Shown here one piece after another: positions 41,335 through 56,462 of a stretch of DNA of 62,330 nucleotides (the stretch's first letter is position 1; each line of letters opens with the position of its first letter). The notes below the pieces were generated by a model that was not told where the DNA came from, made no database searches, and saw only the letters and a program-made list of their open reading frames with translations. A program made the translations under genes and the position numbers. Source of the DNA: Alphaproteobacteria bacterium (lineage in GTDB: Bacteria > Pseudomonadota > Alphaproteobacteria > Acetobacterales > Acetobacteraceae); contig JAPLOI010000076.1 of the NCBI GenBank assembly GCA_026400815.1, positions 125,237 through 187,566 on the forward strand, given 5' to 3'.

Positions 41335-44289
41335 CTACACACTTGGCGCGGCGGGCACCTGCCAGCGCCGAAGGGAGTCCAGCCCCGCCAGCACCAGCGG
41401 CTCCAGCGCCTCCACCCGCTCGCGCAGCCCGTCATAGCGCCCGGCCGCCACTTCCTCCTGGATCGCCGCCGCTGCCAACCCCAGCTGCGCCAACCCCACC
41501 GTACGCGCCGCCCGCGCCACCAACCGCGCCTGATGCCCCAGCAGATCCATCCGCCCGGCCTGCACCAGGTCGCGCATGTCCTCCATCTGGCGCAGCGCAT
41601 CGGCCTGGAACTGGCGCACCACCTCCGCCACCGGCCCGGTACCGATCTCCTCCACCAGCGCGGCCAGCCGCTGCGCATCGAACCCCGCCGGCAGCCGCAC
41701 CGCGGGAGCCTCCGCCGGCACCACCACGGCGGGGGCCGGCGCGGCCACGGGCTCGGTCGCCACCAGTTCCAGCGCCCGGACGATCGCGGCCCCGAGGCGG
41801 GAGGCACTGATCGGCTTGGTCTCGAAATGCGTCATCCCCGCCGCCAGGCAGCGTTCCTGGTCGGCCGCCATGGCATTGGCGGTCAGCCCGATGATCGGAA
41901 TGCCCGCCGCCGCGCCACCCAGCCGACGGATCGCCTCGGTGGCTGCCAGCCCGTCCATCTCCGGCATCATCACATCCATCAGCACCAGGTCGAACCCGCC
42001 GCGCTGCACCGCCTCCACCGCCTCGCGCCCGTTCTCCACCGCCTCCACCCGGTGGCCCATGCGCTCCAGCATGCGCGTGGCCACCAGCCGGTTGGTCGGG
42101 TTGTCCTCAGCGATCAGGATACGCCGAGGCACCACGCCCCCCTCCTGCGCCACCGGCGCCAGGGGTGCGAGGTCGCCGCGCGGCAGCGTCAGCAGCACGT
42201 CGAAATGGAAGGTGCTGCCCTGCCCCGGCGTGCTCTCCACCCCGATCGTGCCGCCCATCCGCTCAACCAGCCGCCGGCAGATCGCCAGCCCCAGCCCGCT
42301 GCCCCCGAACCGGCGGGAGATGGAGCTGTCCACCTGCGTGAACTCCGTGAACAGCCGCCCCTGCGCCTCGGGCGCGATGCCGATGCCGGTATCGCTGATC
42401 GCGAAGCCCAGCCGGATCGCGCTGCCCTCGCTGCCCACCAGCCGCACCGCCAGCCGCACGCTGCCTTCGCTGGTGAACTTGATGCCGTTGCCAATCAGGT
42501 TCAGCAGCACCTGGCGCAGCCGGTGTGCGTCGCCCACCGCGCGCACCGGCACCTCCGTCGCCACCTCCTGCGACAGCAAAAGCCCCTTGGTCGCCGCCTC
42601 CGCTGAGAGCAGCTCCATCGAATCGCGCACCACCTCGCGCACGTCGAACGCCGTCTCCTCCAGGTCCAGCCGCCCGGCATCCAGGCGCGAGAAATCCAGG
42701 ATATCGTTGATCAGCTGCAGCAAATGCTGGCCGGAATCGAGGATGATCCGCACGTAGTGCTTCTCGGTGCCCCCCAGCGGCATGTCCTGCAGCAGCCCGG
42801 CCACGCCGATGATCCCGTTCATCGGCGTGCGGATCTCGTGGCTCATCACCGCCAGGAACTCGCTGCGCGCCCGCCCCGCCGCCTCCGCCGCATCGCGCGC
42901 CGCAGCCAGGGCGCGCTCGTTGCGCCGGCGCTCGGTGATGTCGGTATAGGTCCGCACCGCGCCGCCATCCGGCAGCCGCTCCGTGCGCACCTCCAGCACC
43001 ACGCCGTTCGGCCGCATGCGCTCGAAATGCGCGTTCTGCGCCGAAAGATCACCGGTCTCCAGGAAGCGCAGCACGCCGGGTTCCACCCGCCCGGGCGTTC
43101 CGAACTCGCCGCAATCCACCTGCCATTGCACGATGTCGCGAAAGGACGGATTCATCTGCACCAGGTCGGCCGGCAGGTCGAGCAACGCGATGGCGCGCTG
43201 GTTGATCACCGGCACCTGCCCCGTGGCATCGATCATCATGATGCCCTGGCTGATGTTCTGCAGCGTCGCGGTCAGTGCCTGCTGGCTGGCCAGCAGCCGG
43301 TGGTGCTGGCGCTGCACCAGCGCGCCCACACCGATCACACCCACCGTCATCAGCAGCCCGGCGCCCACGAACTGCAGCCGGTGCCGCCGGAAGCTGGAAA
43401 ACACATCGGCGCTGTCGATGCCGATCATCACCGCCAGCGGGTAGAAGCGCAGCCGCCGCCAGGCGCCGATGCGGTCCACCTCGTCCAGCCCACCGGCGCC
43501 GCGGAAGATGCCCTGGGCCTCCCCCCCGCCGGTCACCGCCGCCGCCTCGCTGCCGGCATAGACCTGGCCGATCGCGCCAGGCAAAGGCGGCATGCGCGCG
43601 CGCACCAGCCCATCGGGCCCCACCACCAGCATCACCGCCTCGCCCACGTCCAGCGCCTCGGCAAACCGCGTCAACTCCTCCGCCGCCAGCGTCGCCACCA
43701 CCCCGCCCAGCACCGTGCCATCGGCCGCCGCGATGCGCCGCATCGCATGGACAGACCACCGCCCGGTCGCCCGGCTTCGCATCGGCGGCCCCAGCCGCAG
43801 CCGGTCGTCGCCACCGCCGCGCAGCCAGGCCAACTCCCCATCCGAAAGCTCCACGCGCCCAGCACCGGGCCCGGCGCTGCTCGCCTTCACCGCCCCGTAG
43901 GGATCCAGCAACGCCACCTGCACCTGCCGCCGCCCCAGCACCGGCCCGCGGCTCAGCGCCACGGGATCGAACCCGGCGGGGTCGCGCAGGTAGCTCTCGC
44001 GCAGGAACAGCAGGCTCTGGTCCAGCGCCTCGAAGCTGCGCTCCAGGTTCTCGGCGAAGCCATAGGCGGTGTTGCGCGCCTTCTGCATGGCATCGAAGCT
44101 GGTCTGCCGGTATTCGCCCAGCAGGTGGATGTACACGCTGCCCCAGGTCAGGCAGATCGCCACCCCAACCAGCATGGCAAAGGCATAGGAAGCCCGGAAC
44201 GCCCCGCGCTTCGGCGGCGGCGCCGCGCCCACCATGCGCGCCGCATCGCCGCGCGGCTCGCCCGCTCCCGCGGCGCCCGCATCATTCAT
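41335..44289 (-). CDS. Multidomain hybrid histidine kinase (sensor-PAS-HisKA-HATPase-REC-HPt)
   Basis: This 984-residue protein holds almost a whole phosphorelay. It has a membrane segment (about 35-57), an extracytoplasmic CACHE-like sensor (about 60-300), a second membrane segment (306-326), a PAS domain (about 338-455), HisKA with His484 in [12 protein letters not shown], and an ATPase domain with DTGIGI (633-638) and [10 protein letters not shown] receiver follows with Asp772, then a C-terminal HPt domain with His919 in LLGHQARLV. The partner response regulator is not adjacent. It is placed between trpE and tpiA, where related genomes usually keep housekeeping genes together, so it looks like an insertion into the syntenic block. 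The stimulus is unknown. Confidence 0.94.
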
Positions 44290-44392
44290 GGTGATGGCCT
44301 CGCGCGCGTCCCATGGGGCGTCAGCCGCACTCCCGTCCCGATCCGTGCCGGGATGCTAACGCGGAACGGGAGCCAGCGCACGCCGAAGCGCG

Positions 44393-45925
44393 CTAAACCG
44401 GCCCCGCGTTCGGACCCTTGCCGGCGGCGAAGCGCACCGCCTCCTCCGCCGCGCGGAACAGGGCGCGCGCCTTCTGCCGGCACTCCTCGTATTCCGCCTC
44501 CGGCACCGAATCCGCCACCACCCCGGCCCCGGCCTGCACATACATCGTGCCGTCCTTCACCAGCGCGGTACGCAGCGCGATGCAGGTATCCATGGAGCCA
44601 TCGGCGGCGAAATAGCCGATGCAGCCGCCATAGATGCCGCGCCGCACCGGCTCCACCTCCTCGATGATCTCCATCGCCCGCACCTTCGGCGCGCCGGAAA
44701 GCGTGCCGGCCGGGAACCCCGCCGCCAGCGCATCCACCGCCTCCAGCCCCTCGGCCAACCGGCCCTGGACCTCCGACGAGATGTGCATCACGTGGCTGAA
44801 CCGTTCGATGATGAAGCTCTCCTTCACCTTCACCGAGCCGATCTCCGAAACCCGGCCCACGTCGTTGCGGCCGAGATCCAGCAGCATCAGGTGCTCGGCC
44901 CGCTCCTTGGGATCGGCCAGCAGCTCCTCTTCCAGCCGCAAATCCTCCTCGTTCGTCGCCCCGCGCCGGCGCGTGCCGGCCAACGGCCGGATGGTCACCG
45001 CGCCATCGCGCAGCCGCACCAGGATCTCGGGCGAGGAGCCGACGATGGAGAACCCGCCGAAATCCAGGAAGAACAGGAACGGCGCCGGGTTGATCCGCCG
45101 CAGCGCGCGATACAGCGAGAACGGCGGCAGCGCGAACGGCGCCGAGAAGCGCTGGCTGGCCACCACCTGGAACGCGTCTCCGGCGCGGATGTATTCCTGG
45201 CACCGCTCCACCGCGGCCAGGAATTCCTCGCGCCCGAAGGTCGAATCCGGCTCCGCCATCGGCGGCAGCGCCACCGGCGGCGCGCCCTGCGGCAACGGCC
45301 GCTCCAACGCCGCCTCCGCCTCGGCCAGCCGCGCCTGCGCCGCCTCCCACGCCTGCAGCGCGCTGGTGCCCGCCCGCGGATAGACCGGGGCCGCCATCGT
45401 CAGCGTGTCGTTCACGTTGTCGAAGATCGCATACAGGCTCGGCCGCGCCATGATCGCCTCGGGCAGGCCGATATCGTCCTTGTTCTTGGCCGGCAGCTTT
45501 TCCATCAGCCGCACCATGTCGTAGCTGAGATAGCCGATCAGCCCGCCGCACATCGGCGGCAGCCCATCGGGCACCGCCAGCCGGCTCTCGGCGATCAGCG
45601 CGCGCAGGCTGTCCAGCGGCGCCTTCGCCTCCGGCACGAACGCGAACGGCGCGGAGCGCGCATCGCGGTTTAGCTCCGCCATCGTGCCCCGGCAGCGCCA
45701 CACCAGGTCGGGATCGAGCCCGATGATCGTGTATCGCCCGCGCGAGGCCCCGCCTTCGACGGATTCCAGCAGGAACGTATTGGGCTTGCCATGCGCCAGC
45801 TTCAGGAACGCCGCCACCGGCGTCTCCAAATCCGCCACCCCGTGCGACCACAGCAGCCGGCCGCGGCCCTGCTCGTAGTCGGCGCGGAATTCGGCAAAGC
45901 CAGGCGGCGGCGAGGCGTTCATCAT
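44393..45925 (-). CDS. trpE: Anthranilate synthase component I
   Basis: TrpE makes anthranilate from chorismate with glutamine-derived ammonia, opening tryptophan synthesis. The 510-residue protein has the N-terminal feedback region with LLESVEGG, then the chorismate-binding domain with VASQRFSAPF, PLAGTRRRGA, DLGRNDVGRVSE and GAGVVADSVPEAEYEEC. Two consecutive ATG codons (45925, 45922) follow GGAG; the second has better spacing. It lies 28 bases after ppiD. trpG and trpD are not adjacent, unlike in many alphaproteobacteria, because the hybrid kinase follows. Confidence 0.96.
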   Translation of the reverse strand: MMNASPPPGFAEFRADYEQGRGRLLWSHGVADLETPVAAFLKLAHGKPNTFLLESVEGGASRGRYTIIGLDPDLVWRCRGTMAELNRDARSAPFAFVPEAKAPLDSLRALIAESRLAVPDGLPPMCGGLIGYLSYDMVRLMEKLPAKNKDDIGLPEAIMARPSLYAIFDNVNDTLTMAAPVYPRAGTSALQAWEAAQARLAEAEAALERPLPQGAPPVALPPMAEPDSTFGREEFLAAVERCQEYIRAGDAFQVVASQRFSAPFALPPFSLYRALRRINPAPFLFFLDFGGFSIVGSSPEILVRLRDGAVTIRPLAGTRRRGATNEEDLRLEEELLADPKERAEHLMLLDLGRNDVGRVSEIGSVKVKESFIIERFSHVMHISSEVQGRLAEGLEAVDALAAGFPAGTLSGAPKVRAMEIIEEVEPVRRGIYGGCIGYFAADGSMDTCIALRTALVKDGTMYVQAGAGVVADSVPEAEYEECRQKARALFRAAEEAVRFAAGKGPNAGPV

Positions 45926-45953
45926 CGGTCTCCGAAGGCAGCAGGCGCCAAAC

Positions 45954-47867
45954 CTACTCCGGCTGCACGATCCGGTCGACCATGGCGCGGTTGATCAGCG
46001 GCTTGGCGCGCGCGCGCAGCCCGGCGGTCAACGCCGCCTGCACGTCGTCGCCGATCGCCGCCGCCAACGCATCGCGCACCTGGCCATAGCCGATCGGGTC
46101 CGCATCCGGTGCCGCCGGCTGGATCTCCGCCAGCACCGCCACCGCGAACCCGTCCACCGTCTCCACCATGGTGGCCTCGCCCAGCTTCAGCTCGAACAGC
46201 GGCGCAACCAGCTGCAGCGGAACTTCCTCGGCGGGACGCGCCCCGCGGCTGATCTCCGGCAGGCGCCGCACCGGCAGGTCGGCGATCACCGCCACATCGG
46301 CCAGGCTCTGGCCGCCCTTGATCGCCTCCAGGATCTTCGCCGCCGCCTCCTCCTGGCTGCGGCGGATCGCCGCCTGGGTCCAGTCGGCCAGCACCGCCTC
46401 GGCCACCTCCTCATAGGGGCGCGCCGCCGGCGGCATGATGTCCTCCACCACGAAGGCATAGAAGCCCGAAAGGATGCCCGGCTTGCGCGGCCCCTCGATC
46501 AGCCGCGGTGTCTCACCCTTCTGGGCCTGGAACGCCGCCGTGATCAGCGCATTGCGCAAATCATCCCCGCCCGGGATCGGCGCCGGCTGCCCTTCCGCCG
46601 TCATCCCGCGCGCATCCAGCGTGCCCATCACGCCGGTCAGGGCGAGATCCCCCGGCATCTCGTCCAGCGGCGTGCCGCCAGAGAGCAGGTCATCTACCTT
46701 GTTGGCGCGATCATACAGCGCATCGGCGGCGCGCTCGTTGCGGATCTGCGCCTCCAGCTGGGCGCGAACCTCCTCGATCGGCCGCACCACGCCCGGTGTC
46801 ACCTTGGTCACTCGCACCACATGCCAGCCGAGCGCGCTGCGCACCGGTGCTGGCACCGCCCCAGGCGCCGCGGCGAACACCGCCATGGCCAGCTCGGGGG
46901 CCGGGATCTCGCTGCGCACCGCATCGGTCAGCTCCACCGGCGCCGCGCCCTCGGCCTTCGCCGCCTCCTGCATCGCCGCCCAGTCGGCCCCCGCGGCCCA
47001 TTTCTCCGCCAGAGCCTTGGCCTTCGCCTCATCCTGGCTCAGCAGCACCTGCACGCTGCGCTTCTCCGGCAGGTTGAACTCCGCCGCCCGCGCCGCATAG
47101 GCCGCGCGCACATCCGCCTCCGTCACCGCCACATCGGCCGCCAGCCGCTCCGGCGAAAGGATCACCGCCTTCACCCGGCGGAATTCCAGCGTCGAGAACT
47201 TGGCGATGTTGTTGGCATACCAGCGCTCCAGCGCCACCGCCGGCGGGGCCTCCGGCGCCGGTGCGGCATCCAGCCGCAGCTCCACCAGCTCGGCGATGCG
47301 CTTCTCCTGCTGGAAGGCATAGACCAGCTTGGTCATCGTCTCCGGGCTCGAAGCCCCGGCCCGGGCGGCTGCGATCAGCTGGCGCTGGGCGATCTCGATA
47401 CGCATCAACGACAGGAAGCGCTGCTCCGTCAGCCCGTTGTTGCGCAGAACCTCCTCGAACTGCCGCCGGCTGAACTTGCCGTCCGGCCCGGCAAACGCCG
47501 AGGTATCCCACACCGCCTGGCGCAGCGCCTCGTCGGGCACCACCAGCCCCATGTCCTGCGCCGCCCCGGTCAAGGCCACCTGGGTGATCAGCCGCTCCAG
47601 CGCCTGCGCCGCCACGCCGCGCTTCATCTCCATCGTCGGCTCCACCGTGCCGCCCAGCATGCGCGACACCTGGGAAAGCTGGCGCCGGTAGGAATCGGCC
47701 ACCTCGTCCATCTCGATCCGCCGGTTGCCCACGGTGGCCACCGCCGTGTCCGTGGGGCGCTTGGTCAGCACGTCGCCCACGCCCCAGATCACGAACACGC
47801 CGATCAGCAGCATGAAGAACACCTTCGCCGCCCAGGTGTTCAGGAAGGCGCGAAAGATGGAAATCAT
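45954..47867 (-). CDS. SurA/PpiD-type periplasmic peptidyl-prolyl isomerase
   Basis: This 637-residue inner-membrane-anchored chaperone acts on exported proteins. It has a short cytoplasmic end, a membrane segment (about 12-32, AKVFFMLLIGVFVIWGVGDVL), a SurA-like N-terminal helical domain (about 35-180), a parvulin domain in the middle (about 250-370, ending in LGWHVVRVTKVTPG) and a C-terminal domain. PpiD commonly precedes trpE in this class. The gene starts a minus-strand run of ppiD, trpE and the hybrid kinase. A 232-base gap separates it from the sugar transferase. Confidence 0.9.
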   Translation of the reverse strand: MISIFRAFLNTWAAKVFFMLLIGVFVIWGVGDVLTKRPTDTAVATVGNRRIEMDEVADSYRRQLSQVSRMLGGTVEPTMEMKRGVAAQALERLITQVALTGAAQDMGLVVPDEALRQAVWDTSAFAGPDGKFSRRQFEEVLRNNGLTEQRFLSLMRIEIAQRQLIAAARAGASSPETMTKLVYAFQQEKRIAELVELRLDAAPAPEAPPAVALERWYANNIAKFSTLEFRRVKAVILSPERLAADVAVTEADVRAAYAARAAEFNLPEKRSVQVLLSQDEAKAKALAEKWAAGADWAAMQEAAKAEGAAPVELTDAVRSEIPAPELAMAVFAAAPGAVPAPVRSALGWHVVRVTKVTPGVVRPIEEVRAQLEAQIRNERAADALYDRANKVDDLLSGGTPLDEMPGDLALTGVMGTLDARGMTAEGQPAPIPGGDDLRNALITAAFQAQKGETPRLIEGPRKPGILSGFYAFVVEDIMPPAARPYEEVAEAVLADWTQAAIRRSQEEAAAKILEAIKGGQSLADVAVIADLPVRRLPEISRGARPAEEVPLQLVAPLFELKLGEATMVETVDGFAVAVLAEIQPAAPDADPIGYGQVRDALAAAIGDDVQAALTAGLRARAKPLINRAMVDRIVQPE

Positions 47868-47970
47868 GGAATCATCCCGAACATCAGGCCGCCCGCGGCG
47901 GATAAGGTGCCCGCCCTATGCCAGATCGCCCCGCCAACCGCAAAAGCCATGGCGACGGCCGTACACGAAA

Positions 47971-47996
47971 CCGGGGAGCGGCGTCCCGCTCCCCGG
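47971..47996 (-). terminator. Hairpin downstream of the sugar transferase gene
   Basis: The perfect 11-bp arms CCGGGGAGCGG and CCGCTCCCCGG have a 4-base loop. On the minus strand it is followed by TTTCGTG, a short T tract, 104-129 bases after the sugar transferase stop. It would separate that transcript from ppiD. Confidence 0.55.
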
Positions 47997-48099
47997 CCCG
48001 TTTCGGCTGAAAACCCTGGTCGTGAAAATCGTGGGCTTGAATGCTTTCCCGGGACATAATCTCGTCGTGCGCCTGCTCCCGGCGGGAGCGGCAGGCGCC

Positions 48100-48807
48100 C
48101 TACTGGCCGCGCCCGCTCACCATCACATTGAGCGTACGAAACATGATCATCACGTCGGAGACGAGCCAGCCGCCGAAAGTGGCCAGCCGCATCGCATAGG
48201 CGGCATCGAACCCCACCTTGCGCCGCACATCCTCCACGCTGTTGTCGTAGCCCTGCACCACCTGGGTCAGGCCCGTCACGCCCGGCCGCAGCCCGGCGGT
48301 GCGGTCGGCGAAGAACGGCACCGCCTGCTCCAGCCGCCGGTACATCGCGGGCCGCTCCGGCCGCGGCCCCACCACAGACATGTCGCCACGCAGCACGTTG
48401 ATCAGCTGCGGCAGTTCGTCCAGCCGCGTCTTGCGGATGAAGGCACCCACGCGGGTGATGCGCGGATCGTGCTTCTGCGCCCACACCGCCCCGGTGGCCT
48501 TCTCGGCATCGGCGCGCATGGAACGGAATTTCAGGATCTCGAACAGCTCGGTCCGGTCGGACAGGATCCGCCCGACCCGCATCTGGCGGTAGATCACCGG
48601 GCCCGGGCTATCCAGCCGGATCGCCAGCGCCACCAGCGGCCATAGCGGCGCCGTCAGCACCAGCCCCACCAGCGCCACCACGATGTCCATGATCCGCTTG
48701 GCCACCAGCACGCTACGCGGGATGTATTCCAGCGCCAGGAACTGCTCGGTCGTCAGCGCTGCGGTGCTGTGCTTGCGGTGGGACATCAATCGTTCCTGGT
48801 CGGTCAT
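48100..48807 (-). CDS. Undecaprenyl-phosphate sugar-1-phosphate transferase (polysaccharide initiating)
   Basis: Enzymes of this family transfer a sugar phosphate to the lipid carrier to start exopolysaccharide or O-antigen units. The 235-residue protein has a polar N-terminus, a hydrophobic re-entrant segment (about 38-63, [19 protein letters not shown]), then [17 protein letters not shown], the [20 protein letters not shown] block and [13 protein letters not shown]. The sugar is not predictable. ATG 48807 has GAAGG six bases upstream; ATG 48786 is possible. No other glycosyltransferase is adjacent, so it acts with genes elsewhere. A sigma-54-type promoter precedes it. Confidence 0.93.
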
Positions 48808-48864
48808 GGTCGGCCTTCGTGCCGGGCGCCATGGAGAGCCAGGCGCTTGCAGCAGGCATAGTAA

Positions 48865-48880
48865 TGCAATCGCCATGCCA
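48865..48880 (-). promoter_or_regulatory. Sigma-54 (-24/-12) promoter for the sugar transferase
   Basis: Read on the minus strand the element is TGGCATGGCGATTGCA. It has GG and GC 12 bases apart, as required, and matches TGGCACG-N4-TTGCW at all but one position. Transcription would start near 48854, about 47 bases before the start codon. The adjacent gene encodes a sigma-54 activator. Confidence 0.75.
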
Positions 48881-48940
48881 TGGTGCAGGAATGTCGCCCA
48901 AACGTTACCCGCAGGTTGCGAAACCGCGAATTCCCGCCGA

Positions 48941-50422
48941 TCAGCCAGTGGGCAGCAACCCTTCCGCCCGCCAGCTCTGCAACTTGCGGTAGATGGTCGA
49001 AGGGTTGATCTCCAGCAGCGCCGCCGCCCTGGGAACGTCTTGCCCGGTGTGCCGCAGCGCCGCCAGGATCAGCCGCCGCTCCATCAGCGCCAGCGGCACG
49101 ATCTCCGCCATCTCCTCCTCGGCGGCCTCGGCGGCCTCGGCCGCGGGCCGCACCACCCGCGCCGCGGTCGCCGCCGGCACCAGGCCAGGCGCTGGACCCG
49201 CGGCAGAAGGGGGTGCCGCCTCGGCGCGATCGCCCTCGGCACCATCGGGGCGCCGCACGGCGCGCGGGATCATGTCCAGCTCCACCCGGTCGCCGTCGTG
49301 CAGCACCACGATGTTGCGCACCACGTTCTGCAGCTGGCGCACATTGCCCGGCCAGCCGTACTGCCCCAGCGCCTGCTCCGCCGGGGGGCTGAAGCCATGG
49401 AAGCCGCGCCCCTCCTCGCGCGCGAACTGCGCCAGGAAGTGCCGCGCGATCAGCAGCACGTCCTCGCCCCGCCCGCGCAGCGGCGGCAATTCCACCGGCA
49501 CCACATACAGCCGGTAATACAGATCCTCGCGGAACCGCCCGGCCTGCACCTCCAGCATCGGGTCCCGGTTGGTGGCACACACGAAGCGCACATCCACCCG
49601 CTCCAGCCGCGAAGACCCCACCGGGGAGAACGTGCCGGTCTGCACGAAGCGCAGCAACTTAACCTGCATATCCAACGGCATCTCGCCGATTTCATCCAGG
49701 AACAGCGTGCCCCCGTCGGCCAGCTTCGCCGCCCCCTCGCGGTCTGCACTGGCGCCGGTGAAGGCGCCGCGCACATGGCCGAACACCTCGCTCTCCAGCA
49801 GGTCGCGCGGGATCGCGCCGCAGTTCAGCGCCACGAAATTCCGCCCCGCCCGCGGGCTCGCCCGGTGCACCGCCTCGGCCGCCAGCTCCTTGCCGGTGCC
49901 GCTTTCGCCGGTGATGAACACGCTGGCCTTGCTCGCGGCCACGCTCTCGATGGTGCGATACACCGCCTGCATCGGCGCGCAGGCCCCGATGAAGCCGAAG
50001 AACTGGCCGCGATCCAGCCGCGCCTTCACGCTGGCCAGCTGCGCCGCCAGCGCCTGCTTCTCCAGCGCATTGCCCAGCGTCACCGCCAGCCGCGCCTTGG
50101 CATAGGGCTTCACGATGAAGTCCACCGCCCCGGCCCGCATCGCCTCCACCGCGGCGTTGATGGAGGCATTCGCCGTCACCACCACCACCGGCACGTCGAT
50201 CCCTTCGGCGCGCAGCCGCTGCATCAGCTCCATGCCGTTGAAGTCCGGCAGCTCGATATCCAGCAGGATCGCATCCGGCCGCCAATCCCGCGCCGCCACC
50301 AGCGCCGCCCCGGCGGTCTCGGCCACCTCCACCTCGTGCCCCAGCCCCACCAGCAATGCACGCGCCAGTTGTGCCTGGGTCGGGGTATCCTCCACGACCA
50401 GAACGCGGGCCACGCCGTTCAT
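48941..50422 (-). CDS. Sigma-54-dependent response regulator (REC-AAA+-Fis)
   Basis: This 493-residue enhancer-binding protein activates sigma-54 RNA polymerase. It has a receiver (1-120, phospho-acceptor Asp55 in ILLDIELPD), a AAA+ domain (about 146-375; Walker A GESGTGKE 172-179, sigma-contacting GAFTGA 219-224), a Pro/Ala-rich linker, and a C-terminal Fis-type helix-turn-helix (about 445-485; AAALLEINPSTIYRKLQSW). The start overlaps the HPt gene stop as ATGA, so the two are a pair. Neighbouring genes have sigma-54-type promoters, which makes them its likely targets. The kinase feeding it is not adjacent; either hybrid kinase in this window could do so. Confidence 0.95.
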   Translation of the reverse strand: MNGVARVLVVEDTPTQAQLARALLVGLGHEVEVAETAGAALVAARDWRPDAILLDIELPDFNGMELMQRLRAEGIDVPVVVVTANASINAAVEAMRAGAVDFIVKPYAKARLAVTLGNALEKQALAAQLASVKARLDRGQFFGFIGACAPMQAVYRTIESVAASKASVFITGESGTGKELAAEAVHRASPRAGRNFVALNCGAIPRDLLESEVFGHVRGAFTGASADREGAAKLADGGTLFLDEIGEMPLDMQVKLLRFVQTGTFSPVGSSRLERVDVRFVCATNRDPMLEVQAGRFREDLYYRLYVVPVELPPLRGRGEDVLLIARHFLAQFAREEGRGFHGFSPPAEQALGQYGWPGNVRQLQNVVRNIVVLHDGDRVELDMIPRAVRRPDGAEGDRAEAAPPSAAGPAPGLVPAATAARVVRPAAEAAEAAEEEMAEIVPLALMERRLILAALRHTGQDVPRAAALLEINPSTIYRKLQSWRAEGLLPTG

Positions 50423-50754
50423 CCGCGGCCGTCGAGTCGGGTCAGCACCCGGGTCACGTCGCCCAGCGCCGCTTCCGCCCGCGCCCGGATATCGGCCAGC
50501 AGCGCACCCAGCGGCCCCGCCTCGGCCATGGCCGTGCGGCACGCCGCTTCCAGCCGCGCCGCCCCCACGGCCCCGGCAGCCCCCGCGAGCCCATGCGCCG
50601 CGCGGCGGAAGGCAGTGCCGTCCTCCGCCGTGGCCGCCCCGGCCATCGTATCCGTCAGGCGCTGCACATCGGTGCGGAACACCGAAAGCACCAGCCGGAG
50701 GTCTTCCTTCGACAGGTCCTCCGCCAGTTGCGCCGCAAAGCCGTTGTCACCCAT
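50419..50754 (-). CDS. HPt (histidine phosphotransfer) domain protein
   Basis: This 111-residue helical protein carries a single HPt domain with phospho-acceptor His54 in RRAAHGLAGAAGAVGAARLE. It should shuttle phosphate from a hybrid kinase receiver to the response regulator encoded directly downstream, whose gene overlaps by four bases. The coupled pair indicates a multistep phosphorelay. The transmitter must be a separate hybrid kinase. No sigma-54 promoter element is seen upstream, so the pair is probably expressed constitutively. Confidence 0.87.
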   Translation of the reverse strand: MGDNGFAAQLAEDLSKEDLRLVLSVFRTDVQRLTDTMAGAATAEDGTAFRRAAHGLAGAAGAVGAARLEAACRTAMAEAGPLGALLADIRARAEAALGDVTRVLTRLDGRG

Positions 50755-50857
50755 TCATCCCGTCCGTGCTGTCGCCGGGTCTGCCCGCCGCGGCGGCGCA
50801 TCCATTGCGCGAACGTCGCGCAAAGGTGCATCCGCATGCAAGGGCCCCAAATAAGAA

Positions 50858-50886
50858 GGCCCGGATGGTGAACCACCATCCGGGCC
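50858..50886 (-). terminator. Intrinsic terminator of the STAS gene
   Basis: The 13-bp arms GGCCCGGATGGTG and CACCATCCGGGCC are perfect with a three-base loop. On the minus strand it is followed by TTCTTATTTG. It lies 65-93 bases after the STAS stop and 104 bases before the HPt start, so it insulates the HPt/regulator pair from the STAS transcript. Confidence 0.75.
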
Positions 50887-50950
50887 GCTTAAATCAGCCA
50901 GTGTGAATGCATGCCGGCCGAAGCCGGCACCTTAAAAATCCCTCAGTCCC

Positions 50951-51304
50951 TCAGCGCGCCCAGGCCAGGCCGGGCAGCGCCAGGAAAAAACCTTTGCGCT
51001 CCTCCTCCAGCCCCAGCGCGCGCGCCAGGCCCAGATGCCGCAACATCGCCAGCGGCTGCCCGCCCACACCGGCCAGCGTCAGCCGCCGCCCGCGTGCCGC
51101 CAGGCGCTTGAACAGGAACGAAATTGCTCCCACGCCAGACCCATCAAGATGCGTCACGTTGGAAAGATCGATCACCACCTCACGCGCTTCCACGCTGGCC
51201 AGGGCACTGAACCCATCCCGCATGGCCCGGCTCGCCTCGCCATCCAGCCCGCCGCGCAGATGCAAACGCACCAGGCCGGGCTCGTTGTGGATCCGCTCGA
51301 ACAT
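50951..51304 (-). CDS. STAS-domain protein (anti-sigma factor antagonist type)
   Basis: This 117-residue protein is a single STAS domain. Its phospho-acceptor-like Ser56 lies in THLDGSGVGAI after the REVVIDLSNV strand. Such proteins are switched by a serine kinase, bind an anti-sigma factor when dephosphorylated, and can also act in polysaccharide or biofilm control. I choose ATG 51304 because GGAGGA lies four bases upstream and because the sigma-54-type promoter at 51372-51387 would start transcription near 51361. The ATG at 51367 would lie before that start point and has no ribosome binding site. No kinase or phosphatase partner is nearby. Confidence 0.82.
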   Translation of the reverse strand: MFERIHNEPGLVRLHLRGGLDGEASRAMRDGFSALASVEAREVVIDLSNVTHLDGSGVGAISFLFKRLAARGRRLTLAGVGGQPLAMLRHLGLARALGLEEERKGFFLALPGLAWAR

Positions 51305-51371
51305 CCATCCTCCGGTTTCGGCGAGCCCGGCATCGACCGGCAGCTCGGAAACATTCAACGAAACCATCCTA

Positions 51372-51387
51372 TGCACGCCCCATGCCA
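51372..51387 (-). promoter_or_regulatory. Sigma-54-type promoter for the STAS gene
   Basis: On the minus strand the element is TGGCATGGGGCGTGCA. The TGGCATG block equals that of the other two elements and GG/GC spacing is 12. The -12 block reads GTGCA where TTGCA is ideal. Predicted transcription start is near 51361, giving a 57-base leader to ATG 51304. Confidence 0.6.
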
Positions 51388-51436
51388 ACTCGCCCGCCCC
51401 ATGCCGGGTCGCCTTGCAGGCGAATGTGAACGCAAT

Positions 51437-51500
51437 GACGTTAATAAAATCTTTCACTTTGGGCGAAATGCATCGCATTTTGCATTTGGTCATTAACGTC
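51437..51500. promoter_or_regulatory. AT-rich region with inverted repeats upstream of the STAS promoter
   Basis: Two inverted repeats occur in this unusually AT-rich stretch: AAATGCA/TGCATTT (51466-51487, 8-base spacer) and GACGTTAAT/ATTAACGTC (51437-51445 and 51492-51500). They lie 50-113 bases upstream of the -24 element. That is near the usual distance for enhancer-binding-protein sites, so they may be upstream activating sequences. Confidence 0.4.
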
Positions 51501-51544
51501 CATGTTGCAGAATGCATCAGCGGCCGGCGGCCAGACGTGGCCGC

Positions 51545-51790
51545 CTAGGACTTCGCCTGCTGCGCCCGCGTCACCGGCCCCGGCACGCGCACCCCGGCCT
51601 CCAGCTCCGCCACCCGGCCCGACCAGTATTCCAGCATTTGCGCCAGGGATTGCAGGTCTGCCCGCTGCATATCGTCCAGATCGTCGTATTCGCCATGCGC
51701 CAGCCGGAACCCAAGGTCCGCCGCCGCCTCGCGCAATTGCTGGCTCACCATGATGCCCGACAGGCTTTCCAGGACCGAGGGCGGGATCAT
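51545..51790 (-). CDS. 81-residue protein of unknown function under a sigma-54-type promoter
   Basis: I do not recognise a family. The protein is soluble and helical: PPSVLESLSGIMVSQQL, a second helix LREAAADLGFRLAHGEYDDLDD with an acidic stretch, then MQRADLQSLAQMLEYWSG and a basic end (VTRAQQAKS). ATG 51790 follows GGGAGGGCGGC. An in-frame ATG at 51877 is possible but lacks a ribosome binding site and adds unlikely residues. The promoter element lies 122-137 bases upstream. Its placement beside STAS and HPt genes suggests a role in the same pathway. Confidence 0.68.
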   Translation of the reverse strand: MIPPSVLESLSGIMVSQQLREAAADLGFRLAHGEYDDLDDMQRADLQSLAQMLEYWSGRVAELEAGVRVPGPVTRAQQAKS

Positions 51791-51911
51791 GCCGCCCTCC
51801 CGCCACGCACCGGCGTCAACGCCATCGTGATCCCCCTGCGCCCCAACGGGCCTGGCCCCGTTAATGTAAAGAAACATTCTTTAATCAAATATCTGAACAT
51901 GCAAGGGGCGG

Positions 51912-51927
51912 TGCAACGGGCATGCCA
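51912..51927 (-). promoter_or_regulatory. Sigma-54 (-24/-12) promoter for the 81-residue protein gene
   Basis: On the minus strand the element is TGGCATGCCCGTTGCA. It has TGGCATG, four bases, then a full TTGCA, with GG/GC spacing 12. This is the best of the three matches. It lies in the loop and inner arm edges of an 11-bp inverted repeat (51905-51915 and 51929-51939). Confidence 0.75.
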
Positions 51928-51973
51928 CTGCACCGCCCCCAACATGTCGGGCCGAAAACGACCCCGGCAGCGC

Positions 51974-52050
51974 CTCAGCGCGTATCGGTATGGCCAGCGC
52001 GTCTCAGCGCGTATCGGTATGGCCAGCGCGCCTCAGCGCGTATCGGTATG
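51974..52050. repeat. 29-bp tandem repeat, 2.7 copies, at the 3' end of the NTF2-like gene
   Basis: Two full 29-base units (51974-52002, 52003-52031) differ only in the last base. A 19-base third copy (52032-52050) contains the last five codons and stop of the NTF2-like gene, so the end of that gene has been duplicated twice downstream. The array is in a non-coding stretch, 47-123 bases upstream of the best sigma-54 element. Confidence 0.95.
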
Positions 52051-52407
52051 AAACGTCTTGGCCACCACCTTCCACGCCCCGCCGACCTTCGCCAGCGACA
52101 GGTAGTCGGTGAAATAGCGCGGCGGAATCTGGCACTGCACCTTGGCGAAAGCGGTGGTCGGCCCCGAGCGGTCGATCGACACCACCCAATCCTTCCGCTC
52201 CAGCCCCTGCGCCTTGGCCGAAGGACGGCTCTTCACGCCTTCCAGCCAGGTCCCGCGCGGCAGCACCGCCAACGAGCCATCGGCCGCCACGCTGCGCAGA
52301 TCCGCCGTCTCATGGAACGCCGCCGCCAGCTTGCCGGCATCCCCCTCATACAGCCCATCAAAATAGGTCTGCAGCACCGCCTCGATCTGCTTGATGTCGT
52401 CAGACAT
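52033..52407 (-). CDS. NTF2-like (lumazine-binding-type) protein
   Basis: This 124-residue small protein of the SnoaL/NTF2-like fold has IEAVLQTYFDGLYEGDAGKLAAAFH near the start, WLEGVKSRPSA, YFTDYLSLAKVGGAWKVVAKTFHTDTR at the end, and hydrophobic strands between. Family members bind small ligands or act as isomerases or dimerisation domains; no specific function is predictable. The stop codon lies inside a tandem repeat unit, so the 3' untranslated region carries two extra copies of its own gene end. The next gene in the same direction (acr3) is upstream by 11 bases. Confidence 0.82.
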   Translation of the reverse strand: MSDDIKQIEAVLQTYFDGLYEGDAGKLAAAFHETADLRSVAADGSLAVLPRGTWLEGVKSRPSAKAQGLERKDWVVSIDRSGPTTAFAKVQCQIPPRYFTDYLSLAKVGGAWKVVAKTFHTDTR

Positions 52408-52418
52408 GCATCACTCCC

Positions 52419-53462
52419 CTAGTTTTGCCCCGCACGCCGGCGCACCGCCGGCCCGCTTTCATACCAGCCGCGCGACACCCGGGCGAGATGCACCACGCTC
52501 AGCATCACCGGCACCTCGATCAGCACGCCCACCACGGTGGCCAGCGCCGCGCCGGACCCGAACCCGAACAGGCTGATCGCCGCGGCCACCGCCAGCTCGA
52601 AGAAATTGCTCGCCCCGATCAACGCCGAGGGCGCCGCCACGCAATGCGCCTCGCCGGAAACCCGGTTCAGCCAGTACGCCAGCCCCGCGTTGAAATACAC
52701 CTGGATCAGGATCGGCACCGCCAGCAGCGCGATCACCAGCGGCTGCGCCAGAATGGCCTCGCCCTGGAACCCGAACAGCAGCACCAGCGTGGCCAGCAGC
52801 GCCACCAGGGAGGCCGGCCCCAGCCGCCCCAGCATCGCCGCCAACCCGCCCGAGGCCAGCAACCGCGCCCGCCATACCTGCGCGATCACCACCGGCACCA
52901 CGATATAAAGCACCACGCTGAGCACCAGCGTCCCCCACGGCACCACGATCGCCGACAGCCCCAGCAGCAGCGCCACAATCGGCGCAAACGCGAACACCAT
53001 GATCGTATCGTTCAGCGCCACCTGGGAGAGCGTGAAATTCGGCTCCCCGTCGATCAGGTTGGACCACACGAACACCATCGCCGTGCACGGCGCCGCCGCC
53101 AGCAGGATCAGCCCGGCGATATAGCTCGCCACCTCCCCCTCCGGCAGCCACGGCCGGAACAGCCAGCCGATGAACACCCAGCCCAGCAGCGCCATCGAGA
53201 ACGGCTTCACCGCCCAGTTGATAAACAGCGTTACCGAAATCCCGCGCCAGTGCTTCGTCACCTGTCCCAGCGCGCCGAAATCGATCTTCATCAGCATCGG
53301 GATGATCATCAGCCACACCAGCACGGCCACCGGCAGGTTCACCTGTGCCACCTCCAGCCGCCCCACCGCCTGGAACACGCCGGGCATCACATGCCCCAGC
53401 CCGATCCCCACCACGATGCACAGCCCAACCCACAGCGTCAGGTACCGTTCGAACAGGTTCAT
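52419..53462 (-). CDS. arsB: ACR3-family arsenite exporter
   Basis: This 347-residue membrane exporter extrudes arsenite. It has ten hydrophobic segments, the conserved Cys in LLAAAPCTAMVFVWSN (about residue 127) that binds arsenite, LNDTIMVFAFAPIVALLLG, and GVLIEVPVMLSVVHLA with the essential Glu near the C-terminus. The symbol arsB is often used for ACR3 members. No arsR, arsC or arsH is present, so it is isolated or regulated from elsewhere. It lies 11 bases upstream of the NTF2-like gene. The divergent gene is RraA-like. Confidence 0.93.
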   Translation of the reverse strand: MNLFERYLTLWVGLCIVVGIGLGHVMPGVFQAVGRLEVAQVNLPVAVLVWLMIIPMLMKIDFGALGQVTKHWRGISVTLFINWAVKPFSMALLGWVFIGWLFRPWLPEGEVASYIAGLILLAAAPCTAMVFVWSNLIDGEPNFTLSQVALNDTIMVFAFAPIVALLLGLSAIVVPWGTLVLSVVLYIVVPVVIAQVWRARLLASGGLAAMLGRLGPASLVALLATLVLLFGFQGEAILAQPLVIALLAVPILIQVYFNAGLAYWLNRVSGEAHCVAAPSALIGASNFFELAVAAAISLFGFGSGAALATVVGVLIEVPVMLSVVHLARVSRGWYESGPAVRRRAGQN

Positions 53463-53516
53463 GCTTTTCCCTCGGGCCCGGCCGGCGCATGCTCACGCCA
53501 ACCGGAGGACCCTGCC

Positions 53517-54221
53517 ATGAACCCTGAAACCCTGGCCACCCTGCGCCGCGTCAGCACCGCCACGCTCACCACCCAGATGTTCAAGCGCGGCTTCCGCAAC
53601 GTGTTCATGCAGGGTGTGCGCGGCCTCGGCACCTACGAACACAACATGGTCGGCCCCGCCACCACCGTCCGCAACATCCCCTCGCGCGAGGACATCGACG
53701 TCATGTCCAGCCTCGGCAACCCCGAGCACCCGCAGCGCAAGGCCGTCGAAACCTGCAAGCCCGGCCACGTCCTGGTCATGGATTGCCGCGGTGACGCCCG
53801 GGCTGCCAGCGGCGGCGACATCCTCATGACCCGCCTGCTCCGCCGCGGCGCCGCCGGCGTGGTAACGGATGGCGGCATCCGCGATGCCGGCCCCATCTCC
53901 AAAATGCCCCTCCCCGTCTTCTGCGCCGGCCCCTCCGCGCCGCTCAACATCGTCCAGCACCACGCCGTCGAGATCGACGCCCCGATCGCCTGCGGCGGCG
54001 TGGCCGTCTACCCCGGCGACATCCTGGTGGGTGACGCAGATGGCGTCGTCGTCCTCCCCGCCCACCTCGCCGACGCCGTCGCGCAGGACGCCGCCGCCCA
54101 GGAAGCCCTGGAGGAATTCCTCCTCGCCAAGATCGACGCCGGCGCCCCGCTGCCCGGCACCTACCCCCCGAACGAGGCCACGCTCGCCGAATACGAAGCC
54201 TGGAAGAAATCCCGCGGCTGA
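53517..54221 (+). CDS. RraA-like (4-hydroxy-4-methyl-2-oxoglutarate aldolase/oxaloacetate decarboxylase family) protein
   Basis: This 234-residue protein belongs to the RraA/HMG aldolase-like family. It has the GDARAASGGDILMTRLLRRGAAGVVTDGGIRDA segment, in which Arg and Asp bind the metal and substrate, then FCAGPSAPLN and GVAVYPGDILVGDADGVVVLP. A C-terminal helix of about 45 residues extends the usual RraA core. GGAGG lies 9 bases before ATG 53517. True RraA inhibits RNase E, but the catalytic Arg/Asp and longer tail fit the aldolase group better. It is followed by malate synthase, which fits oxo-acid metabolism. Confidence 0.82.
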   Translation: MNPETLATLRRVSTATLTTQMFKRGFRNVFMQGVRGLGTYEHNMVGPATTVRNIPSREDIDVMSSLGNPEHPQRKAVETCKPGHVLVMDCRGDARAASGGDILMTRLLRRGAAGVVTDGGIRDAGPISKMPLPVFCAGPSAPLNIVQHHAVEIDAPIACGGVAVYPGDILVGDADGVVVLPAHLADAVAQDAAAQEALEEFLLAKIDAGAPLPGTYPPNEATLAEYEAWKKSRG

Positions 54222-54293
54222 GCCGCCCACTCGACAAACCCTCCCCCCTCGGCCACAAACGACCGCTTAAGGAAAACAACGGGGAGTACGGGC

Positions 54294-56462
54294 ATGACCC
54301 ATGTCGAGGTGGGCGCGCTCAAGGTCGCGCCGGTCCTGAAGACCTTCATCGAAGCCGAAGCCCTCCCGGGCACCGGCATCGCCGCCGACGCGTTCTGGTC
54401 CGGCCTCGCCGCCCTCGTCGCCAAGTTCGCCCCGCGCAACCGCACCCTGCTCGACACCCGCGACCGCCTCCAGGCCCAGATCGACGCCTGGCATCTCGGC
54501 CGCAAGGGCAAGCCGCACGACGCCGCGGAATACGAAGCCTTCCTGCGCGCAATCGGCTACCTCCTCCCCGCCCCCGCCCCCTTCGCCGTCTCCACAGCCA
54601 ACGTGGACCCGGAAATCGCCACCATCGCCGGCCCGCAGCTCGTCGTGCCCGTCAGCAACGCCCGCTACGCGCTGAACGCCGGCAACGCCCGCTGGGGCAG
54701 CCTCTACGACGCGCTCTACGGCACCGACGCGATCCCGGAAGATGACGGCGCCACCAAGGGCCGCGGCTACAACCCCGCCCGCGGCGCAAAAGTCATCGCC
54801 GCCGCGAAGAAGTTCCTCGACGAAGCCGTCCCCGTCGCCGGCTATTCCCACGCCGACGTGCGCGCCTACACCGTCACCGGCGGCGTCCTGAAAATGACCC
54901 TCGCCCCCGGCCTCGGCCAGACCGGCCTGGCCGACACCACCCAGTTCGTCGGCTTCCACGGCGACGCCGTGCTGCCGCAAGCCATCCTGCTCAAGCACAA
55001 CGGCCTGCACATCGAACTCGTGCTGGACCGCACGCACGCCATCGGCAAGGACGACCCGGCCGGCCTCGCCGACGTCATGGTCGAATCCGCCATCACCACC
55101 ATCATGGATTGCGAAGACAGCGTCGCCGCCGTCGATGCGGCCGACAAGGTGGACGTCTACCGCAACTGGCTCGGCCTGATGAAAGCCGACCTCGTCGCCA
55201 GCCTCGAAAAGGGCGGCCGCACCATCGAACGCCGCCTGAACCCGGACCGCCCCTACACCAACCCGCGCGGCGGCGCCGCCATCACCATCCCCGGCCGCTC
55301 CCTCATGCTGGTCCGCAACGTCGGCCACCACATGTTCACCGACGCCGTGCTGGACAGCGCCGGCAACGAAATCCCCGAAACCATCCTCGATGCCACGATC
55401 ACCTCCATGATCGCCATCCACGACCTCAACTCCGAAAGCCCGATCCGCAACTCCCGCGCCGGCTCCGTCTATATCGTGAAGCCCAAGATGCACGGCCCGG
55501 AGGAGGTCCAGTTCGCCTCCGACCTCTTCGCCGCCGTCGAAGACCTGCTCGGCCTCGCCCGCAACACCCTCAAGATGGGCATCATGGACGAGGAGCGCCG
55601 CACCACCATCAACCTCGCCGCCTGCATCCACGCCGCCCGCGAGCGCGTCGCCTTCATCAACACCGGCTTCCTCGACCGCACCGGCGACGAAATCCATACC
55701 TCCATGGAAGCCGGCGCCATGATCCGCAAGAACGACATGCGCGCCACGCCCTGGATTGCCGCCTACGAGAACAACAACGTCGATACCGGCCTCGCCTCCG
55801 GCCTGCGCGGCAAGGCGCAAATCGGCAAGGGCATGTGGGCGATGCCGGACCGGATGGCGGACATGCTCACCCAGAAAATCGGCCACCCGAAGGCCGGCGC
55901 CAACACCGCCTGGGTCCCCTCCCCCACCGCCGCCACGCTGCACGCGCTCCACTACCACCAGGTCAGCGTCGCAGACCGCCAGACCGAAATCTCCACCCGC
56001 ACCCCGGCCGCCCTGTCCGACATCCTCACCCTGCCCCTCGCCGACCGCCCCAACTGGGCGCCCGACGCCGTGCAGCAGGAACTGGACAACAACATCCAGG
56101 GCATCCTCGGCTACGTCGTCCGCTGGATCGACCAAGGCGTCGGCTGCTCCAAGGTGCCAGACATCCACGACATCGGCCTCATGGAAGACCGCGCCACCCT
56201 GCGCATCTCCAGCCAGCACGTCGCCAACTGGATCCACCACGGCATCACAACCGAAGCCCAGGTGATGGAAACCATGAAGCGCATGGCCACGGTGGTCGAC
56301 CGCCAGAACGCCGACGACCCGCTCTACACACCGATGGCGCCGGGCTTCACCGGCCCCGCCTTCGCCGCCGCCTGCGACCTCATCCTCCAGGGCCGCGCCC
56401 AGCCGAACGGCTACACCGAATTCGTGCTGCATGCCCGGCGCCGGGAGGCGAAAGCGAAGTAA
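54294..56462 (+). CDS. glcB: Malate synthase G
   Basis: Malate synthase G condenses glyoxylate with acetyl-CoA in the glyoxylate bypass. The 722-residue protein has [16 protein letters not shown] (catalytic metal Asp-Glu area), the [18 protein letters not shown] loop, [51 protein letters not shown] and the EEVKAK-like basic end. Isoform A would be about 530 residues. GGGGAG precedes the ATG. No isocitrate lyase is nearby. The stop is followed after four bases by a dispersed repeat that terminates it. Confidence 0.97.

Follow-up and report, generated by a model that had tools for sequence, protein, structure and literature searches.

Do five neighbouring minus-strand genes of an uncultured freshwater Acetobacteraceae genus, encoding a sigma-54 activator, an HPt phosphotransfer protein, a STAS protein, a sugar transferase and an 81-residue protein (SP81), form a regulatory system of a new kind, or a divergent version of one already described? 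The genes lie in a 62,330-nucleotide (nt) stretch of contig JAPLOI010000076.1 (assembly GCA_026400815.1, positions 125,237 to 187,566; hereafter the window), and the locus was found in the nine genomes of the genus. All five are where an earlier interpretation made from the letters alone (the sequence-only reading) had put them, four in the families it named and SP81 without a family. That interpretation had proposed that phosphorelay input switches on the STAS protein together with a polysaccharide-initiating enzyme through sigma-54 promoters, adding that it knew of no such set in any described system. This is not borne out: SypF (HPt), SypG and SypA of the squid symbiont Vibrio fischeri, with the syp polysaccharide genes, are such a system, as are the scv loci. 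The set itself is already known from syp, and on the evidence of its sequence the locus is a dispersed relative of the syp/scv biofilm systems. With a probability of roughly three in four, we consider it to be the reduced and dispersed control core of such a syp-type biofilm-polysaccharide system, with an always-competent STAS protein. What is new here is the Acetobacteraceae branch, with its conserved activator box, loss of the phospho-serine, separate HPt gene, dispersed targets and SP81 family.

The STAS protein (50951-51304, minus strand, 117 residues) links the locus to syp. Its start is most likely at 51304 (MFERIHN, after GGAGG) rather than at 51517, and the ATG there is conserved in all nine genus genomes. 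A profile of 16 STAS proteins from loci of the family was applied to STAS-bearing stretches from five distant genomes, three of them Vibrio; its top three matches were SypA-like proteins of two of the three Vibrio and of Agaribacterium (2e-21, 2e-18 and 1e-18), the next STAS protein following at 8e-10, and these SypA-like proteins sit in loci with a SypG-type activator. In V. fischeri, SypA residues K67 and R68 are essential, the D47A, D55A and Q84A proteins are undetectable, and SypE phosphorylates Ser56, the S56A protein being functional and S56D not (PMC4517449). The window STAS keeps D47, D55, K67, R68, G83 and Q84; across 22 Acetobacteraceae STAS proteins (nine from one genus) D47 and D55 are Asp in every case, K67 is Lys or Arg in every case, R68 is Arg in 21 and Q84 is Gln in 19. 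The phosphorylatable Ser56 of SypA proper is missing: its position holds Gly in 20 of the 22, the window protein included, Asp in one and Asn in one, and is Ser in 3/3 gammaproteobacterial proteins. Since Ser56 is replaced in all 22, the STAS protein should be always competent, with control resting mainly on transcription; because a neighbouring Ser is kept in 16 of them, another phospho-site may exist. A natural family with most of SypA's functional residues but no phospho-serine in any member seen offers a way to find out which part of the protein matters and what the serine switch contributes. How SypA promotes biofilm formation is an open question in Vibrio too (PMC4517449).

The activator (48941-50422, minus strand) is a sigma-54 enhancer-binding response regulator, in which receiver (REC), sigma-54 AAA+, AAA lid and Fis-type helix-turn-helix domains were found together with the intact GAFTGA motif read earlier from the sequence. 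The genome encodes one RpoN match and ten activator matches in all, six of them strong. As also proposed, the HPt gene (50419-50754, minus strand; stand-alone, PF01627, 37.5 bits) is coupled to that of the activator, its stop overlapping the activator start (ATGA). The nearest solved structure by sequence is that of LuxO (5ep0), and the recognition helix PSTIYRKLQ is that of two of three Vibrio LuxO proteins. The NCBIfam LuxO model NF041946 gives 594 bits against a curated cut-off of 800 bits; the activator is related to LuxO at the level of the family and is not LuxO itself. In a tree whose program flagged several long outgroup branches, a branch with 100/100 support holds 37 LuxO/SypG-type sequences of 45, apart from the NtrC, PrsR and FlrC types. 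One clade (97/96) unites Vibrio LuxO, SypG, Aeromonas and Agaribacterium, and another (97/96) Azospirillum and 23 Acetobacteraceae sequences, which makes the window activator a sister of LuxO and SypG alike.

Three genes had been said to carry -24/-12 elements, and these are present as described. Under the pattern TGGCAYGN4TTGCW, the elements TGGCATGGCGATTGCA upstream of the transferase (48865-48880) and TGGCATGCCCGTTGCA upstream of SP81 (51912-51927) are exact and TGGCATGGGGCGTGCA upstream of STAS (51372-51387) has one mismatch, all on the minus strand; the HPt gene indeed shows no such element in the window. The transferase (48100-48807, minus strand, 235 residues; Bac_transf, PF02397, E 6e-58) is of the short polyprenyl-phosphate sugar-1-phosphate type and likely the first enzyme of a polysaccharide. 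Its start is probably near 48807 and, with the STAS start at 51304, each of the two elements then precedes its gene. Judged on the window by itself, the pattern is weak, with five matches at up to one mismatch against 1.5 expected; two of 100 shuffles reach five, and one of the five matches (50352-50367, one mismatch) falls inside the activator coding region and is conserved with it in the genus. A genome-wide scan, suggested in the sequence-only reading, gave 9 exact sites against 1 for the reversed control pattern. Separately, an exact sigma-54 consensus (L010:2288-2303 on contig C55 of the window genome, G000; G, L and C denote genomes, loci read and contigs) stands 81 nt ahead of the first ATG in the 498-residue frame holding the RpoN match, and autoregulation of that frame is possible.

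Within the genus, the order SP81, STAS, HPt, activator is kept in 9/9 genomes, and the transferase comes next in the seven contigs long enough to show it. Aligned intergenic DNA diverges among these genomes apart from blocks. The STAS element TGGCAYGGGNNGTGCA is found in all nine with one mismatch each, and the transferase element at up to one mismatch in six of the seven loci reaching the gene (five exact; one mismatch in G005, inside a tandem repeat), G008 having two mismatches. Of the three proposed promoters, those of STAS and the transferase thus proved conserved, whereas the SP81 element is kept only in part (6/9). The nine genomes do not amount to nine independent tests, because five are very close relatives.

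Comparison across genera reaches further. Activator orthologues occur in 32 of 120 family genomes (E up to 1e-120), and 20 family neighbourhoods were read: beside the activator, an HPt match is found in 19, STAS in 7 and the transferase in 4. Three of the seven other-genus STAS loci lack a neighbouring transferase, and two of those contigs end soon after the activator. An element with up to one mismatch lies within 120 nt upstream of STAS in 6/7 other-genus loci (expected 0.022, P ~1e-13) and with up to two mismatches in 7/7 (expected 0.097; mean of 0.04 of 7 in mononucleotide-shuffled windows at two mismatches), the expected numbers being computed from the same loci and the 120-nt window size chosen after viewing them. 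Among four further STAS loci, element and box occur together in L163, L164 and L167, the first two being close to G120. Across Acetobacteraceae, then, the STAS element is conserved between genera, but the transferase element was found in only two of the four other-genus loci having the gene (G134 and G098), and SP81 itself was found in the genus only. The idea that a phosphorelay switches on STAS and a polysaccharide-initiating enzyme together is accordingly best backed, as a prediction, for STAS, with its elements across genera and boxes upstream, and less widely for the transferase.

These boxes take the form of a palindrome, TYGCAWWWTGCRA, that recurs upstream of STAS elements and matches the published LuxO site TTGCAWWWTGCAA (PMC10162802) with T/C and A/G wobble. 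Two predicted boxes lie upstream of the window STAS element on the minus strand, box 1 (ATGCATTCTGCAA, 51505-51517) by 130 base pairs (bp) and box 2 (ATGCAAAATGCGA, 51473-51485) by 98 bp. Counting up to one mismatch, at least two boxes precede the STAS element in 9/9 genus loci, and a box lies within 250 bp upstream of it in 7/7 other-genus loci (background 0.05 per 250 bp). Because the motif was read off partly from these same STAS loci, independent support comes from L163, L164 and L167, from the count in the window's own genome and from the published site. That genome holds the box six times and the control 0 times: two boxes are upstream of STAS, one is behind an SP81 paralogue, one has no sigma-54 site, one (contig C11) is 86 bp downstream of the sigma-54 site of a PEP-CTERM gene, and the last precedes, by 128 bp, a two-mismatch element in front of an OmpR-type regulator gene (CtrA-like by eye). 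The receiver domain of this last regulator (L151:536-1513, contig C18 of G000) is under the Pfam cut-off. The box also precedes elements of lipoprotein/export genes in G028 and G130. A record of Rhodovarius lipocyclicus (L175) carries the activator and HPt genes with no STAS match, and a contig of G103 shows two one-mismatch elements that have boxes 31-32 bp upstream. A joint box-gap-element pattern gave five matches in 397 family genomes and 0 for its reversed control; the next gene is STAS in four of the five, with lipoprotein and export genes after it in G107 and G269, and the remaining match lies before lipoprotein/export genes. None of these matches falls in the window genus, where the spacing between box and element is longer. 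LuxO-type DNA recognition, in the form of predicted TTGCAWWWTGCAA-like boxes near target promoters, is therefore seen at the STAS promoters. These data suggest that Alpha- and Gammaproteobacteria have kept this recognition in common and that it is linked to polysaccharide genes, a point relevant to which job came first for the LuxO/SypG family.

How close, then, is the locus to the described systems? The V. fischeri system comprises RscS/SypF-SypG, SypA, SypE and the polysaccharide genes; homology to syp was assessed with a pair of Vibrio syp-type loci (L265 and L266) rather than with V. fischeri itself. In common with the V. fischeri system are a LuxO-family sigma-54 activator fed by an HPt step, a SypA-like STAS protein under a sigma-54 element and polysaccharide genes in the regulon; the locus differs in its separate HPt gene, its replaced STAS phospho-serine, its dispersed genes, its additional SP81 family and its boxes, which are of LuxO type rather than the published SypG box. 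At 1e-4 the window yields no SypE-like match (Agaribacterium encodes a receiver-SpoIIE protein), and it has no export or polymerase gene; where a single syp/scv locus combines a regulator, SypA to SypD and synthesis genes, the window has STAS, HPt, activator and transferase. Some relatives hold more of the SypB/C/D-like set, with SypC-like genes in G028, G130, G107 and G269 and SypD-like genes in G028 and G130. The G028 export protein shares 47-49% identity over 680-717 residues with those of the two Vibrio syp loci and Agaribacterium, the ATPase encoded beside it matches the Vibrio/Agaribacterium ATPases at 3e-20 to 1e-25, and the G028 lipoprotein has a match in one Vibrio locus only (1e-5). 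A 19.5-kilobase (kb) stretch of Agaribacterium haliotis carries a GlmS-like gene, a transferase, a box-bearing gap, the SypA-like STAS, an OmpA-type lipoprotein, a multi-SLBB export protein, an ATPase, a hybrid kinase, the receiver-SpoIIE protein and the activator, and the window transferase is 55% identical over 199 residues to the transferase adjoining this SypA-like gene. GlmS-like genes (glutamine-amidotransferase and SIS domains, SIS being uncovered in the cut-off G035 frame) also follow the activator in G018, G035 and G028. They have element and box in these three genera (L126:6551, L130:6739 and L133:6706, with two, one and one mismatches; the G018 element has two mismatches and the G035 box one), which would link the regulon to amino-sugar supply. 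The names sypB, sypC, sypD, CtrA-like and GlmS-like are our own presumptive ones, based on gene order and Pfam domains.

Syp-like scv loci have been reported in 28 genera, including the alphaproteobacterial Elstera and Terasakiella as well as Agaribacterium; the sigma-54 activator ScvE controls the syp-like locus, and that of V. parahaemolyticus is without SypE and SypF (PMC8941931). Placement of a sigma-54 activator over a syp-like locus, as here, is thus known outside Vibrionaceae. The window differs in comprising the control core and transferase only, and Acetobacteraceae are not mentioned in the sections of that report available to us (PMC8941931). Among the matches listed from the open-licence literature, none reports a syp-like system in Acetobacteraceae. 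With the LuxU-LuxO relay the locus shares the HPt and activator gene pair, the recognition helix and the TTGCAWWWTGCAA-like box. In contrast to that relay, it has STAS and polysaccharide genes as candidate targets, its activator lies outside the gammaproteobacterial LuxO/SypG clade of the tree, and no Rfam match occurs in window positions 44000-56000.

From these observations the following sequence of events can be proposed. Phosphate would flow from a hybrid kinase to the stand-alone HPt protein and on to the LuxO/SypG-family activator. A candidate for the cognate kinase is a hybrid histidine kinase (PAS, HisKA, HATPase, REC) at window positions 41335-44289, 3.8 kb beyond the transferase; in BLAST alignments it is mainly its kinase and receiver part that aligns with kinases directly upstream of STAS in G134, G098 and G120. 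Bound to the TTGCA-type boxes between SP81 and STAS, the activator would fire the STAS promoter together with RpoN and probably also the transferase promoter. The SypA-like STAS protein would then license polysaccharide production via a partner, and in the absence of the phospho-serine it would always be competent to do so, leaving control mainly to transcription. SP81 and its paralogue might be co-induced. Such a scheme hints at how far the syp-type switch has spread and at how it can change.

Several observations weigh against this interpretation. The window lacks a SypB-, SypC- or SypD-like match at 1e-4, and 13 of the 20 family loci showed no STAS gene next to the activator. The same consensus scan detects no element at up to one mismatch near sypA in the two Vibrio syp loci and Agaribacterium; boxes precede STAS in Agaribacterium only, with no LuxO-type box near sypA in the Vibrio loci. 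Of the 22 Acetobacteraceae STAS proteins, 21 have Gly at R93, a residue that mature Vibrio biofilm requires, and the other has a gap there. Locus L173 has STAS and a box but a GG-N9-GC spacing (9, not 10), no transferase element was found at up to two mismatches in G120, G129 and L164, and the 250 bp upstream of the transferase and SP81 elements in the window contain no LuxO-type box. Finally, the activator is 49-50% identical to LuxO against 44-45% to SypG, and a second LuxO-type activator of the genome (L015, G000:C61:70020-71417; 52% identity) could use the same boxes.

That the activator scores best against LuxO invites an explanation in which the locus is a LuxO-like quorum or stress regulon and the STAS protein an ordinary anti-sigma-factor antagonist or other partner switch, with no direct tie to polysaccharide. 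STAS proteins do commonly act on anti-sigma factors, and the Azospirillum orthologues of the activator adjoin lactate-use genes and a response-regulator protein, not polysaccharide genes. Yet among the STAS proteins compared this one is nearest to SypA, keeping the main biofilm residues while missing the phospho-serine used in partner switching; lipoprotein and export genes follow STAS in G107 and G269, and a sugar transferase lies near STAS in seven genus loci, in four of the seven other-genus STAS loci and in Agaribacterium. We therefore regard a LuxO-like regulon of this kind as improbable. No more probable, in our judgement, is that the C61 paralogue or PrsR is the main user of the boxes and sigma-54 sites in this genus, the window activator having other targets. 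The C61 recognition helix is similar (STIYRK), but that of the window activator is closer to LuxO's, the paralogue has GSFTGA in place of GAFTGA, and in several genera box and element accompany the HPt-activator locus itself. As for PrsR, the genome has an exosortase polysaccharide locus on contig C21 (L078 and L079) with a pair that we take, by likeness, to be PrsK-PrsR, together with 27 PEP-CTERM matches; 9 of the 25 parsed PEP-CTERM genes (27 loci, 2 unparsed) have a sigma-54 site at up to one mismatch between 400 nt upstream and the end of the frame. RpoN control of PEP-CTERM genes with PrsK-PrsR is described in Aquincola (PMC9850573), and RpoN control of surface-matrix genes is a feature shared with the syp-type core preferred here. 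The window activator differs from PrsR in scoring 360.7 bits with TIGR02915 against a cut-off of 502.6 bits, and only one of the six LuxO-type boxes of the genome, that on C11, adjoins a PEP-CTERM gene.

The part given to SP81 and its paralogue is the weakest step of the syp-type scheme. The gene (51545-51790, minus strand) was found in 9 of 60 genomes searched, which are the nine of the genus. An AlphaFold2 model (7 alignment rows) predicts a helical hairpin with helices at 15-31 and 40-67 and a predicted local distance difference test score of 91-95 over residues 21-60 (mean 78), and a fold search of the PDB gave no match below E 0.9. Assignment to DUF7310 was rejected, as Pfam values of 0.059 for the window protein and 0.017 for the best of seven members are far under the cut-off. 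The sigma-54 element ascribed to the gene exists in six of the nine genus genomes (exact in G000, G001, G002, G004 and G007, one mismatch in G008) but is absent at its place in the aligned upstream DNA of G003, G005 and G006; a different one-mismatch site lies 282 nt upstream in G005, and G003 and G006 have only two-mismatch sites ~400 nt upstream. In the window, moreover, the element sits inside an 11-bp perfect inverted repeat, GGGGCGGTGCA-N13-TGCACCGCCCC. It is quite conceivable, though on balance doubtful, that this element belongs to the upstream gene's terminator hairpin instead of being a promoter and that the window SP81 stands outside the regulon, as the patchy presence and the lack of a box within 250 bp upstream would also fit. 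Against a terminator, no T run follows the stem, and G002 has lost the left arm of the repeat and kept the element.

The SP81 paralogue, present at another place in 9/9 genus genomes (L058-L066; L061 and L080:2420-2975 on contig C40 of G000), bears on this question. In all nine genomes its strongly diverged upstream DNA contains an element of up to one mismatch, and one or more exact boxes follow this element by 476-580 bp, where the gene ends (3') or shortly beyond. For this reason the paralogue better supports a place for the SP81 family in the regulon. No other same-strand element at up to two mismatches occurs in the paralogue loci (~3 kb each). The order in the window is the same, namely element, SP81 and boxes, which suggests that the activator may work from downstream. 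Probably the two proteins, SP81 and its paralogue, are co-induced and have an accessory or feedback role, although this is a guess. A bolder version of the syp-type reading, which we think rather unlikely as a whole, is an alphaproteobacterial syp line in which SypA has come off the serine switch, control has moved to the promoter, the activator also works from boxes ~500 bp downstream, and a duplicated genus-only helical-hairpin protein feeds back on the HPt-activator relay.

The PEP-CTERM genes were also considered as the main regulon of the window activator. This idea was dropped because the genome has the exosortase locus with its own PrsK-PrsR-like pair, and only the C11 PEP-CTERM gene has a LuxO-type box. 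Downstream of a PEP-CTERM gene on contig C78 (L008:1083-1246 of G000), a pair of GTCTCCTGGTCCG repeats and a strong intrinsic terminator come within ~160 nt after a sigma-54 element. Frames on that strand are limited to two, of 39 and 54 codons from TTG, the promoter was read by eye in both orientations, and sequence and element are conserved in G001, G002 and G007; a sigma-54-driven small RNA is possible. A Qrr-like RNA pairing with PEP-CTERM ribosome sites was rejected: one gene out of 25 matched CCAGGAGAC perfectly, and an Rfam scan of seven loci, C78 among them, gave no match.

Two minor features of the window DNA complete the picture. Between STAS and HPt, a perfect inverted repeat GGCCCGGATGGT-N5-ACCATCCGGGCC (50858-50886) is probably a transcription terminator. 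At 51970-52050, three tandem copies of ~29 bp lie at the end of a SnoaL-like gene, with fewer in relatives.

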